Assembly: GCA_029069015.1 (NCBI GenBank)
Contig: JAIEBL010000202.1
Span: forward strand, 384-22,506
Reading direction: 5' to 3'
DNA from: Clostridiales bacterium
Lineage (GTDB): Bacteria; Bacillota; Clostridia; Christensenellales; Pumilibacteraceae
DNA length: 22,123 bases
Under the pieces are notes generated by a model. That model did not search any database, was not told the DNA's origin, and saw nothing but the letters and a program-made list of their open reading frames with translations. Below, one piece after another: positions 10,482-17,211 of this stretch. Every line of letters starts with the position of its first letter. Within the stretch, counting starts at the first letter, position 1. A program made the translations under genes and the position numbers.

Positions 10482-10538
10482 AAACCGACAGTTTTCCGTT
10501 TTTGTGTTGTGGTGTTTTCTGTAAATTTTTATTACACT
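10482..10538 (+). promoter_or_regulatory. Shared operator/promoter element, copy 1 (ABC operon A)
   Basis: The inverted repeat AAACCGA (10482-10488), N6, TCCGTTT (10495-10501) has one mismatch. It is followed by TTGTGTTGTGGTG and a -10 TACACT (10533-10538) exactly 51 bp from the repeat start. No good -35 box is present. It is homologous to the elements at 14254 and 17155. Confidence 0.75.
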
Positions 10539-10610
10539 GTATACGTAAGCGAACGGGCGTGGAAAATCACGAGCGCAAAGCTTACGCGAACGAAGAAACA
10601 GGAGGTAATT

Positions 10611-11834
10611 ATGAAGCGAAAGACAATCGGCGGCGCGTTCATTGCCGAGATCGAGCAGAAAAACGAGCGAGCGAAACGAACCGCTGCCAGAGCGACCTGG
10701 ATCCTCGGCATTCTCGGGTGCGTGCTTTTTCTCATAGGTATGAACGTTTCGCTGCTCAATGCCGATAAAGTGCCCTCACTCGTCGTGGGTTCGATCATCG
10801 GTATCGCGGGCATTGCATTGATGATCGCAAACAAGTTTATCTACAACGCGATCGTCGTGCGGCAAATCGACCGCATGGAGCGGATCGAAAAAGCGAAAGC
10901 CGACCTATCGGAGGGCGCGGAGGGCGTCATCGAAGTGAAAAGCCTGACCAAAAATTACGGGCACGGCCGCGGCGTATTCAACGTTTCGTTCGGCGTGAAA
11001 AAAGGAGAAGTGTTCGGCTTTTTGGGGCCGAACGGCGCGGGCAAGAGCACCACGATGCGCCACCTTATGGGCTTTTCCGATCCGGAGAACGGGCACTGCT
11101 ATATAAACGGCGCGGACTGCTGGAAGTACCACGCGTACGTTATGCAGAACGTGGGGTATCTTCCCGGGGAAGTCGCGCTGCCCGAGGGGCTCAGCGGCAA
11201 GGGCTTTTTGGATATGATACGGGGTTTGCGCAAAGCAAAGACCGACCGCACCGAAGAGCTTCTGAAAATCTTTGCCGTCAATATCGAAGGGTCGGTGAAG
11301 CGCATGAGCATCGGCGAAAAGCGCAAGCTTGCCATCGTGGCGGCGTTTATGAGCGATCCCGAGGTACTGCTGCTCGACGAACCGACGAGCGGGCTCGATC
11401 CCGTCATGCAGGAAGTGTTCATCGACTTCGTGCGGAAAGAAAAGGAGCGCGGGAAAACGATCCTGCTTTCCAGTCACATTTTCAGCGAGGTGGAGGCGCT
11501 CTGCGACCGCATTGCCATCATCAAAGAGGGCAAACTCGTGTCGGTCATCGAAGCGGGCGAGCTGACGCACTATAAGCGCAAGACGTTCGTCGTCACGTTC
11601 GGAGAGAAGAGCGTATACGAAAAATTCCTCGGCGAAGATTTCGATTTCCGTCTTAAAGACGACGACAAGCTGACCTTAGAAATCGCGGTCGAAGACCCCG
11701 AATGCGGCAAAATGATCAAGACGCTTACAAAGTACGACGTGAAAAATCTGGTGGAACACAAGCAGACGCTCGAAGAATACTTCATGCATTTTTACAAGAG
11801 CGAGCGCACGTTCGGAGGGCTGAGCAATGGCTAA
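10611..11834 (+). CDS. ABC transporter ATP-binding protein with N-terminal two-TM extension
   Basis: The product is 407 residues from ATG 10611, set by AGGAGG at 10600-10605. Residues 1-100 are not part of a normal ABC ATPase: a basic start, two hydrophobic spans (about 29-48 and 56-82), then a charged linker RMERIEKAKADL. The ATPase domain follows with Walker A GPNGAGKST (139-147), a VGYLPGEV segment at the Q-loop position, a degenerate signature MSIGEKRKLAI (232-242), Walker B VLLLDEP (252-258), D-loop SGLD and H289. The C-terminal region resembles BcrA-type exporters. It overlaps the next ATPase gene by 8 nt. The two ATPases and the single permease at 12734 probably form one exporter, with this subunit anchored by its own helices. 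Confidence 0.88.
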   Translation: MKRKTIGGAFIAEIEQKNERAKRTAARATWILGILGCVLFLIGMNVSLLNADKVPSLVVGSIIGIAGIALMIANKFIYNAIVVRQIDRMERIEKAKADLSEGAEGVIEVKSLTKNYGHGRGVFNVSFGVKKGEVFGFLGPNGAGKSTTMRHLMGFSDPENGHCYINGADCWKYHAYVMQNVGYLPGEVALPEGLSGKGFLDMIRGLRKAKTDRTEELLKIFAVNIEGSVKRMSIGEKRKLAIVAAFMSDPEVLLLDEPTSGLDPVMQEVFIDFVRKEKERGKTILLSSHIFSEVEALCDRIAIIKEGKLVSVIEAGELTHYKRKTFVVTFGEKSVYEKFLGEDFDFRLKDDDKLTLEIAVEDPECGKMIKTLTKYDVKNLVEHKQTLEEYFMHFYKSERTFGGLSNG

Positions 11835-15580: not shown

Positions 15581-17143
15581 ATGAAGAAGAAAATCATAAT
15601 CAAGGGATACAAGAAAGAGACGGAACGGGTGGTCAGCTACATCCCGTTCCGTTATATCGTAGCGATCTTTCTGGTCGTGCTCGAAACGCTTGCCGTGATC
15701 GGCGTCATGACCTTGCTTACGATCTTTATTCCTTACTTCTATTTTGCCGTTGTTGCGACGCAAGTCGGCGTTGCCGTCGCCATCGTCAACCGCAAGGATA
15801 ATCCCGACTATAAGCTGCCGTGGCTGTTCTTCGTTTTGCTGATCCCCATCGTGGGCTTTATGCTGTACTTTATGTTCTACTCGCGTAAGCTTGGCAAAAA
15901 GCAAAGCAAACGGTTGAACGGGCTGACGAAGCAGCGCGTGATGAAAGACGATACGGAAAGCTTGTTGGAGGTCCATGCCGAAAACGAACTCGTCGGCTCG
16001 CAAGCGGTTATGCTCGGTACGTTGTCCGATTCGCATCTGTACGGGAATACGGATATTCGCTATTACCCGCTCGGCGAAACGCTTTTTGCGGCAATGGTCA
16101 AGGACCTCAAATGCGCCGAAAAGTTCATCTTTATGGAATACTTCATCATCGAGGGCGGGCTGTTCTGGGACACGATCTTGGAAGTGCTCAAAGAAAAAGC
16201 GGCAAGCGGCGTCGAGGTGCGCGTCGTGTACGACGATATCGGTTGCATGATGACGCTCCCCGGCAATTACTATAAACAGCTCCGTAAATTCGGCATAAAG
16301 GCAGTTCCGTTTTCCCGCTTGCGCGGACAAGCCAACAACGAGTTCAACAACCGAAGCCACCGAAAGATCACCGTGATCGACGGTCGCGTCGGTTTTACGG
16401 GCGGCGTGAACCTTGCCGACGAATACATAAACCGCGTGGAGAAATTCGGGCATTGGAAGGACGTGGGACTGCGGCTCGAGGGCGAAGCCGTCAACGAGCT
16501 GACGCGTTTGTTTCTGATCGATTACGGCTTAAACGACAAAAACGCGAACGATTACTTTGCCGATTATTACGCGTACGAGCAATACGAACAAGAGGGTTAC
16601 TGCATTCCGTTCGGCGACGGTCCGAAACCCGTTTATCAGAGGCAGGTGTCGAAGGCGGTGATCCTCAACATGCTCAATCAAGCCAAGCGTTACGTATATA
16701 TCACGACGCCGTACCTGATCATCGACAGCGAGCTTATCGAAGCGCTGGAAAACACGGCGATGCGCGGGGTGGACGTCCGCATCATCACGCCGCACGTCCC
16801 CGACAAAAAACTCGTGTTTCTGATGACGCGCAGCCATTACAATCGGTTGCTTGCGGCGGGCGTGAAGATCTACGAGTACGAGAGCGGTTTCGTGCACGCC
16901 AAAACGTATCTGTCCGATGACGAGACGGTGATGGTGGGCACGGTCAACATGGACTACCGCTCGCTCGTGCACCACTTTGAAAACGGCGTTTGGATTTACA
17001 AGCACAAAGTGCTCGAAGACATAAAGCGTGACTTTCTCGATACGCAGGAAAAGTCCGTCAAGTTCGAGCTCGGTATGCTCAAAGAAAATCTGTTTCAGCG
17101 ATTTATCCGCGCGTTGGCAAAAGTTTTCTCGCCGTTGTTTTAA
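15581..17143 (+). CDS. cls: Cardiolipin synthase (phospholipase D superfamily)
   Basis: This is a 520-residue membrane enzyme that condenses phosphatidylglycerol into cardiolipin. ATG 15581 follows GGGAG at 15571-15575; the frame is open further upstream but lies inside the acetyltransferase gene. N-terminal spans lie at about 24-46, 48-69 and 80-100. Two HKD active sites are intact: HRKITVID (H260, K262, D267) with GFTGG after it, and HAKTYLSD (H439, K441, D446) with MVGTVNMD after it. The length fits bacterial Cls. It is the last gene of operon B and shares the AAACCGA operator control with two exporter operons. Cardiolipin content affects sensitivity to cationic peptides and daptomycin, so a role in envelope defence is reasonable inference. 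Confidence 0.93.
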   Translation: MKKKIIIKGYKKETERVVSYIPFRYIVAIFLVVLETLAVIGVMTLLTIFIPYFYFAVVATQVGVAVAIVNRKDNPDYKLPWLFFVLLIPIVGFMLYFMFYSRKLGKKQSKRLNGLTKQRVMKDDTESLLEVHAENELVGSQAVMLGTLSDSHLYGNTDIRYYPLGETLFAAMVKDLKCAEKFIFMEYFIIEGGLFWDTILEVLKEKAASGVEVRVVYDDIGCMMTLPGNYYKQLRKFGIKAVPFSRLRGQANNEFNNRSHRKITVIDGRVGFTGGVNLADEYINRVEKFGHWKDVGLRLEGEAVNELTRLFLIDYGLNDKNANDYFADYYAYEQYEQEGYCIPFGDGPKPVYQRQVSKAVILNMLNQAKRYVYITTPYLIIDSELIEALENTAMRGVDVRIITPHVPDKKLVFLMTRSHYNRLLAAGVKIYEYESGFVHAKTYLSDDETVMVGTVNMDYRSLVHHFENGVWIYKHKVLEDIKRDFLDTQEKSVKFELGMLKENLFQRFIRALAKVFSPLF

Positions 17144-17154
17144 AACGTTTTCAG

Positions 17155-17211
17155 AAACCGACACTTTTCGGTTTTTGTGTGGTGGTGCTTATACGAAAAA
17201 ACCGTTATAAT
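17155..17211 (+). promoter_or_regulatory. Shared operator/promoter element, copy 3 (operon C)
   Basis: A perfect inverted repeat AAACCGA (17155-17161), CACTTT, TCGGTTT (17168-17174) is followed by TTGTGTGGTGGTGCTT and a -10 TATAAT (17206-17211), again 51 bp from the repeat start. It begins only 12 bp after the cardiolipin synthase stop and could also act as a weak terminator for it. Confidence 0.8.

Follow-up and report, generated by a model that had tools for sequence, protein, structure and literature searches.

A conserved block of sequence occurs three times in the 22,123-nucleotide stretch of DNA analysed here (the window), which covers positions 384 to 22,506 of contig JAIEBL010000202.1 in assembly GCA_029069015.1, from a Clostridiales bacterium of the family Pumilibacteraceae. 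Each copy precedes an operon, and a gene for a TetR-family regulator (tetR) lies among them. We consider it probable that this TetR binds the block and controls the three operons, most likely by activating promoters that have no -35 box. The source assembly is fragmented (407 contigs, 1.63 Mb, 85% complete; the window lies on contig C116), and genes were grouped into operons by their spacing. Operon 1 (ABC1, 10611-13504) encodes two ATP-binding cassette (ABC) ATPases and a putative permease; operon 2 (14345-17143) encodes a repeat-containing protein (REP), a hexapeptide acetyltransferase and a cardiolipin synthase; operon 3 (17235-20666) encodes two ATPase/permease pairs, a twin ABC exporter. 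The tetR gene, on the minus strand, is divergent from operon 2 across a gap of 153 base pairs (bp). Domain and family searches agree with the gene content given in a preliminary description of this DNA, namely exporters, a cardiolipin synthase, an acetyltransferase and a repeat protein. The features are as follows.

9447..10442, minus strand: 331-residue membrane protein, remotely like cation diffusion facilitator (CDF) proteins; a homologue adjoins tetR in many relatives
10449..10477, minus strand: divergent promoter-like pair TTGATT-17-TACAAT for the 9447-10442 gene, from a scan for such pairs whose total in the region (7, against 5.2 in shuffles) was not above background
10482..10517, plus strand: block copy 1 (36 bp conserved); half-sites CGACA at 10486-10490 and TGTTG at 10505-10509
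10533..10538, plus strand: -10 box TACACT of the copy 1 promoter (ABC1 operon); predicted transcription start near 10545
10611..11834, plus strand: first ABC ATPase of operon 1, with an N-terminal membrane domain (residues 18-82), from domain search and profile comparison
11827..12732, plus strand: second ABC ATPase of operon 1, from domain search
12734..13504, plus strand: putative permease of operon 1, so named from its position; no Pfam or NCBIfam match
13537..13573, no strand assigned: terminator-like hairpin and T-run between the convergent operon 1 and tetR (-24.2 kcal/mol, z -3.7)
13598..14191, minus strand: TetR-family regulator, putative binder of all three copies; TetR_N domain, TetR_C_8 below cut-off
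14221..14249, minus strand: weak divergent promoter-like pair TTGCGT-17-TATAGT for tetR, read from the sequence; the promoter-pair scan did not list it
14254..14289, plus strand: block copy 2; half-sites CGACA at 14258-14262 and variant TGTGG at 14277-14281
14305..14310, plus strand: -10 box TAAACT of the copy 2 promoter; predicted transcription start near 14317
14345..15016, plus strand: REP, with a repeated EFxxFxxTKGxxAK-like motif; no convincing Pfam family
15006..15566, plus strand: hexapeptide O-acetyltransferase; nearest NCBIfam families of galactoside/maltose type, below cut-offs
15581..17143, plus strand: cardiolipin synthase; TIGR04265 at 342.5 bits, above the cut-off of 290
17155..17190, plus strand: block copy 3; half-sites CGACA at 17159-17163 and variant TGTGG at 17178-17182
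17206..17211, plus strand: -10 box TATAAT of the copy 3 promoter; predicted transcription start near 17218
17235..18137, plus strand: ABC3a ATPase, nearest to the lantibiotic-protection (BcrA-like) type, from domain and NCBIfam searches
18138..18959, plus strand: ABC-2 type permease 3a (Pfam 24.0 bits, cut-off 27)
18971..19867, plus strand: ABC3b, second ATPase of operon 3 (PF00005, 103.6 bits)
19869..20666, plus strand: ABC-2 type permease 3b (Pfam 24.9 bits, cut-off 27)
20690..20725, plus strand: terminator-like hairpin 3' of operon 3 (-21.9 kcal/mol, z -5.1)

The three copies of the block

The preliminary description defined the block by an inverted repeat, AAACCGA-N6-TCGGTTT, followed by a trailing block. 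The repeat is exact at 14254 and 17155 but carries one mismatch at 10482 (TCCGTTT), so that copies 1 to 3 retain 6, 7 and 7 of its 7 symmetric pairs; copies 2 and 3 have TTGTGTGGTGG as their trailing block, and copy 1 has TTGTGTTGTGG. Copies 2 and 3, described as identical over 34 bases, in fact share 35 (14250-14284), and the chance expectation of a shared 34-mer in a sequence the size of the window is about 8e-13. As had been stated, all three -10 boxes (10533, 14305 and 17206) start 51 bp after the start of the motif. Copy 3 starts 11 bp 3' of the cardiolipin synthase stop codon, so operon 3 may also receive read-through transcription. The only match in an Rfam scan of the window was a tRNA, with no RNA element at the block.

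The palindrome by itself is a poor marker. At up to 3 mismatches, the bare 20-mer occurs four times in the window against 1.74 expected, a count reached in 11 of 100 shuffles and therefore not significant, and as a genome-wide signature it is too weak to use (with 2 mismatches allowed it matches 12 places, and the reversed control 8). The 34-bp block pattern, searched at up to 3 mismatches, gave three sites in the source genome, all with 0 mismatches, and no site in six congeners or in the reversed control.

Distribution of the block and its module

Among 84,980 species genomes, a collection that may omit records closely related to that of the window, the exact block was found in 70 stretches, 69 of which visibly include TetR, ABC3a or both. 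Occurrence at many unrelated sites, named in the preliminary description as a reason to abandon a shared regulon, is therefore not what we see. In the loci fetched, each at most 8 kb long, TetR was visible in 52 of the 70 stretches, ABC3a in 43, REP in 41, cardiolipin synthase in 31 and the acetyltransferase in 25. The sole unrelated stretch (L185) is an actinomycete contig that has neither a -10 box nor a module gene. Since several stretches come from one genome, the 70 do not represent 70 independent events. Sixty-six records are labelled Clostridia or Clostridiales, and the others Treponema (L168), Mollicutes (L170), Anaeroplasmataceae (L190) and the actinomycete; the module in L168, L170 and L190 could reflect either transfer between phyla or a binning error.

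Searches within the family link block and regulator independently of each other. A search with the window TetR alone finds matches in 14 of the 74 family genomes, the source genome among them, and one with REP in 12; the block alone, at up to 2 mismatches, occurs in 11, all of them within the 14 TetR genomes. Eight further block matches at exactly 3 mismatches elsewhere in these genomes are at the level of the reversed control (9). The three TetR genomes without a block match comprise one with a diverged dyad beside tetR (G015), one with a dyad 417 bp upstream (G040) and one whose contig begins 92 bp before tetR (G031). At the level of the order, the block was found at up to 2 mismatches in 26 of 396 genomes, compared to 3 for the reversed control. 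Module-bearing genomes in the family and order sets have one to three copies of the block.

The common order of the module is a homologue of the 9447-10442 gene, tetR, block, REP with the acetyltransferase and cardiolipin synthase, block, and the twin ABC exporter. In some relatives module genes are absent or rearranged, and three block matches without module genes are due to chance. These three (L125, L126 and L127, each with 2 mismatches) and one duplicate were left out before counting, which reduced 52 instances to 48 distinct module copies; leaving out L185 likewise reduced a second set from 78 to 77. The 48-copy and 77-copy sets share species and are not independent. Genes called downstream of blocks (n = 134, with some loci in more than one record and a few calls that look spurious) include 60 for ABC3a, 51 for REP and 23 others, and extra block copies elsewhere precede genes for a 402-residue condensation-domain protein, for 212- and 243-residue proteins, and others. 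Linkage in 69 of 70 stretches, together with the nesting of the 11 block genomes within the 14 TetR genomes, favours the TetR of 13598-14191 as the putative regulator, as had been suggested.

Promoter geometry and the candidate operator

The 77 distinct copies were collected without reference to a -10 box. A TANNNT hexamer begins at offset 51 in 74 of them, and none at offset 50 or 52. For spacers of 16-18, the best -35 match is 2/6 in 68 copies and 3/6 in 9, never more, compared to a match of at least 4 for about 17% of the 611 TATAAT-like hexamers that these loci contain; 8 of the 77 copies have an extended -10 (TGn). Linkage and geometry together support a dedicated regulon, the activator-like upstream position and the lack of a good -35 box. 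With the -10 hexamer at -12 to -7, the palindrome spans about -63 to -44.

The consensus of the 48 module copies, the window's included, is AAACCRACA n TTTTCGG kw TTTRTGTTGTGGTGTTT, and it contains two overlapping symmetries, AAACCGA-N6-TCGGTTT and CRACA-N14-TGTYG. In the named-genome scan, 34 of the 77 copies retain 6-7 of the 7 pairs of the palindrome (mean 5.2); by letters it is exact in 9 and within 2 mismatches in 46. As the operator it is less well supported: the window and its close relatives retain most of the symmetry, but 13 of 17 distant sites have at most 3 pairs, and CRACA-N14-TGTYG reaches further. We therefore rejected the palindrome as a clade-wide operator, and it is possibly an extra site in the window's own group.

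The CRACA-N14-TGTYG dyad spans about -59 to -36 (centre -47.5) and is common to distant TetR relatives (31-43% identity to the window TetR), with the same 23-bp gap to the -10 box. It joins the core of the left palindrome arm to part of the trailing block; for this reason, and because the dyad reaches further, the trailing block is probably not a separate element but contains a half-site and extends over the -35 region. In this arrangement a candidate TetR site lies at a fixed distance from the -10 box, at the -35 region or upstream of it, as for TetR-type activators. The pattern AAAYCRACA-N14-TGTTG-N23-TANNNT occurs at 41 sites in 33 of the 396 order genomes and not at all in the reversed control. 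Thirty-six sites lie within 5 kb of a TetR match, four (G171, G140, G018 C2 and G032 C6) are module fragments on contigs without tetR, and 30 of the 33 genomes have a TetR match (Fisher p 2.7e-27 in a partly circular test). When 17 of 31 weaker TetR matches were inspected, picked by TetR and not by motif, 16 carried the site with no more than 2 mismatches, and the remaining one (L203) had an N13 form, with half-sites one base closer. The half-site is written TGTYG because four of the mismatched cases (L204, L208, L211 and L214) read TGTCG, the mirror of CGACA.

At four divergent distant TetR loci (L199, L201, L203 and L047), an extra CRACA-containing repeat lies just 3' of the -10 box. It reads CAACAAATGTTG in L199, where the -10 box is near 4545; that of L201 is near 3434. 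This repeat is possibly a second, repressing operator.

Mode of control, origin and meaning of the proposed regulon

From the observed conservation, geometry and linkage to the TetR clade, we infer binding, activation and a signal. The TetR of 13598-14191 would bind the block through CRACA-N14-TGTYG, perhaps assisted in the window's group by the overlapping palindrome, and the bound protein would recruit RNA polymerase to promoters with a sigma-A-type -10 box and no -35 box. ABC1, the REP-acetyltransferase-cardiolipin synthase operon and the twin ABC exporter would thereby be switched on together. The activity of TetR may be set by a signal, and the target genes lead us to guess at membrane stress or an envelope-active compound. 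Activation is favoured because a sigma-A-type -10 box, no -35 box and a dyad at fixed distance usually mark activator-dependent promoters.

Several observations weigh against this reading. One of the 41 dyad-promoter sites (G267:C40:64558-64614) lies in a genome without a TetR match and is unexplained. The TetR profile used (A2) includes TetRs from beside the block, which makes the A2 search and the Fisher test partly circular; the searches of the 74 family genomes with the window TetR alone and the block alone are free of this. The letters CRACA and TGTTG stood in the search patterns, so their conservation is partly built in; independent evidence comes only from the location of the sites next to tetR, from their distance to the -10 box and from the mismatched cases. 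Of the 31 weaker TetR matches, the evidence covers the 17 inspected and 2 more that have the exact site. Window copies 2 and 3 have TGTGG for TGTTG, the only two of 48 to do so, and the palindrome is perfect in both. Further exceptions are an N13 form before ABC3 in L039 and a -10 box one base further away in L105. PDB matches of the TetR profile also include repressors (the AcrAB operon repressor and MtrR), and the match to the activator DhaS covers the helix-turn-helix region only and is below cut-off. Repression is the mode of most TetR proteins (PMC2628434, PMC3511530), and all five tested tetR genes less than 200 bp from a divergent neighbour repressed that neighbour (PMC3511530); the gap in the window is 153 bp.

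Classical repression is the first alternative, and we judge it unlikely. TetR on the block would stop RNA polymerase, an exporter substrate would release it, and the three operons would be de-repressed together. This is the commonest mode of the family, typical of divergent tetR-exporter pairs less than 200 bp apart (PMC3511530); the dyad reaches the -35 region, and in distant relatives the site precedes an operon containing tetR, as in ordinary autorepression. A promoter with a -35 match of at most 3/6 and rarely an extended -10 box would, however, be weak when de-repressed, and occlusion needs no exact spacing to the -10 box. A repressed core promoter that has no -35 box is nevertheless conceivable. 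It is improbable that another activator or an alternative sigma factor reads the block while TetR co-travels. Conservation is highest in the right part of the block, TGTTGTGGTGTTT, which overlies the -35 region like a sigma factor or class II activator site, but the -10 boxes are sigma-A-like, and the site follows the TetR clade into distant loci with different genes, where it lies upstream of tetR or its operon. No other regulator is found among the recurring window genes, a negative limited to genes present in the window. Least credible by far is a dispersed repeat, intrinsic terminator or RNA element with no promoter role. A palindrome followed by T's, three near-identical copies and the position of copy 3 just behind the cardiolipin synthase gene would suit it, but there is no transcript to terminate at copies 1 and 2, which are flanked by divergent genes, and the fixed -10 offset, the confinement of 69 stretches to one module and the Rfam result argue otherwise.

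Activation by TetR, the reading that we prefer, has precedents in DhaS (PMC6534649), SczA (PMC4672087), LuxR (PMC2628434) and AtrA (PMC3511530). DhaS of Lactococcus lactis activates the dha operon (PMC6534649), and its helix-turn-helix region is related to that of the window TetR. The window TetR matches the N-terminal helix-turn-helix family PF00440 at 30.0 bits (cut-off 24) but falls below the cut-off of TetR_C_8 (PF14278; 20.7 versus 26.1 bits), for which a distant relative in L207 reaches 45.5. It scores 42.6 bits against the DhaS equivalog TIGR02366 over residues 14-66 only, below the cut-off of 129, and among 17 PDB matches of the TetR profile 4mk6 (DHSK_reg) ranks first and DhaS (2iu5) eighth. 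The DhaS operator, GGACACAT-N6-ATTTGTCC, that is GGACA-N12-TGTCC, resembles CRACA-N14-TGTYG; the two systems differ in gene content, spacer and half-site. SczA of Streptococcus pneumoniae activates the cation efflux gene czcD (PMC4672087), and the partner gene of the window TetR is remotely CDF-like; SczA has one operon, compared to three here, and the window partner protein is below every CDF cut-off. Vibrio harveyi LuxR, a TetR-type activator and repressor with a 21-bp dyad (PMC2628434), is alike in superfamily, dyad operator and possible activation, but it controls many genes, whereas the regulon proposed here is local. The divergent TetR/TetA and QacR pairs share with the window a tetR gene divergent from a membrane or exporter operon across a short gap; unlike them, the window has extra operator-promoter copies before further operons, no -35 box and a fixed upstream spacing.

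The target and partner proteins were compared with known families. The best NCBIfam match of ABC3a is the lantibiotic-protection family TIGR03740 (202.4 bits, below the cut-off of 309.75), and relatives of the ABC1 permease occur in 9 other family genomes at 34-41% identity. The structure model of REP is poor (predicted local distance difference test, pLDDT, 60.4; predicted template modelling score 0.22), and Pfam assignments for REP and the 9447-10442 protein were rejected as scattered weak matches. The latter has ten helices (pLDDT 80.4), and a Foldseek search gives a weak likeness to the CDF zinc transporter fold (ZnT1, probability 1.00, E 0.048, template modelling score 0.45). It has no Pfam match at 1e-3 (only Yip1, E 0.012), no NCBIfam match, and reaches the cut-off of no family; 1 of 30 relatives matches Cation_efflux at E 0.018, and a distant relative scores 19.2 against a CDF cut-off of 26.6 bits and 16.2 against one of 82.35. 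Elsewhere in the window, a predicted protein at 6053-7579 has an odd combination of Flg_new, BspA-type leucine-rich repeats and a flavodoxin domain, and a tRNA gene (3141-3212) lies about 6 kb left of the module.

Nine genomes have the site on the same strand as tetR and 401-458 bp upstream of it, and in 14 fetched distant loci, which include seven of those nine genomes, the site is followed by the gene of a small membrane protein (MNTDKIYAE..., mostly 116-121 residues). A distant homologue of the 9447-10442 protein is present in 10 of the 17 distant loci. The small membrane protein is encoded at L205:4139-4489, at L207:4072-4425 and in 12 other loci; three that were tested had no Pfam match, and in the window its core domain occurs as a fusion with an ABC ATPase. 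Residues 18-82 of the first ATPase of operon 1 match it with an hhalign probability of 95 and a score of 48.8 (at most 17.9 in 60 shuffles, 21.5 reversed). Because of this match, operon 1 is perhaps not random cargo.

In relatives, tetR often adjoins the 9447 homologue (in L036, for instance, the TetR match extends to 2213 and the following gene begins at 2233). In the window, operon 1 with its own block sits between the two. The left flanks of copies 1 and 2, which contain the divergent promoter, share 28 of 40 bases, compared to 16 and 20 in the other two pairings. Operon 1 therefore probably arrived together with a duplicated intergenic region, from which the 9447 gene acquired the promoter TTGATT-17-TACAAT, in the order of events proposed here.

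As proposed, the system is a local TetR-type regulon, a known kind, and its unusual part is a fixed operator-promoter cassette without a -35 box that is repeated for each operon. No report of the motif or module was found among the top-ranked results of a search of open-licence papers. We suggest tentatively, at close to even confidence, that an order-wide clostridial clade of TetR proteins comprises dedicated activators of such promoters, and that the cassette (dyad, 23 bp, -10 box) was copied before newly recruited operons (ABC1 in the window, a condensation-domain protein and unknown membrane proteins in other genomes), so that a local switch became a small regulon transferred between lineages as one unit. 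Sequence alone provides a candidate operator, a promoter geometry and a target list for a TetR clade whose function is unknown. Members of this family are mostly known for repression, and a clade with dozens of targets at fixed spacing and without a -35 box would be a clean system for studying activation by this family. The predicted targets, a twin ABC exporter, a cardiolipin synthase and an acetyltransferase, suggest an envelope-protection response in uncultured Clostridia, and the duplicated cassette illustrates how a local switch may gain targets.

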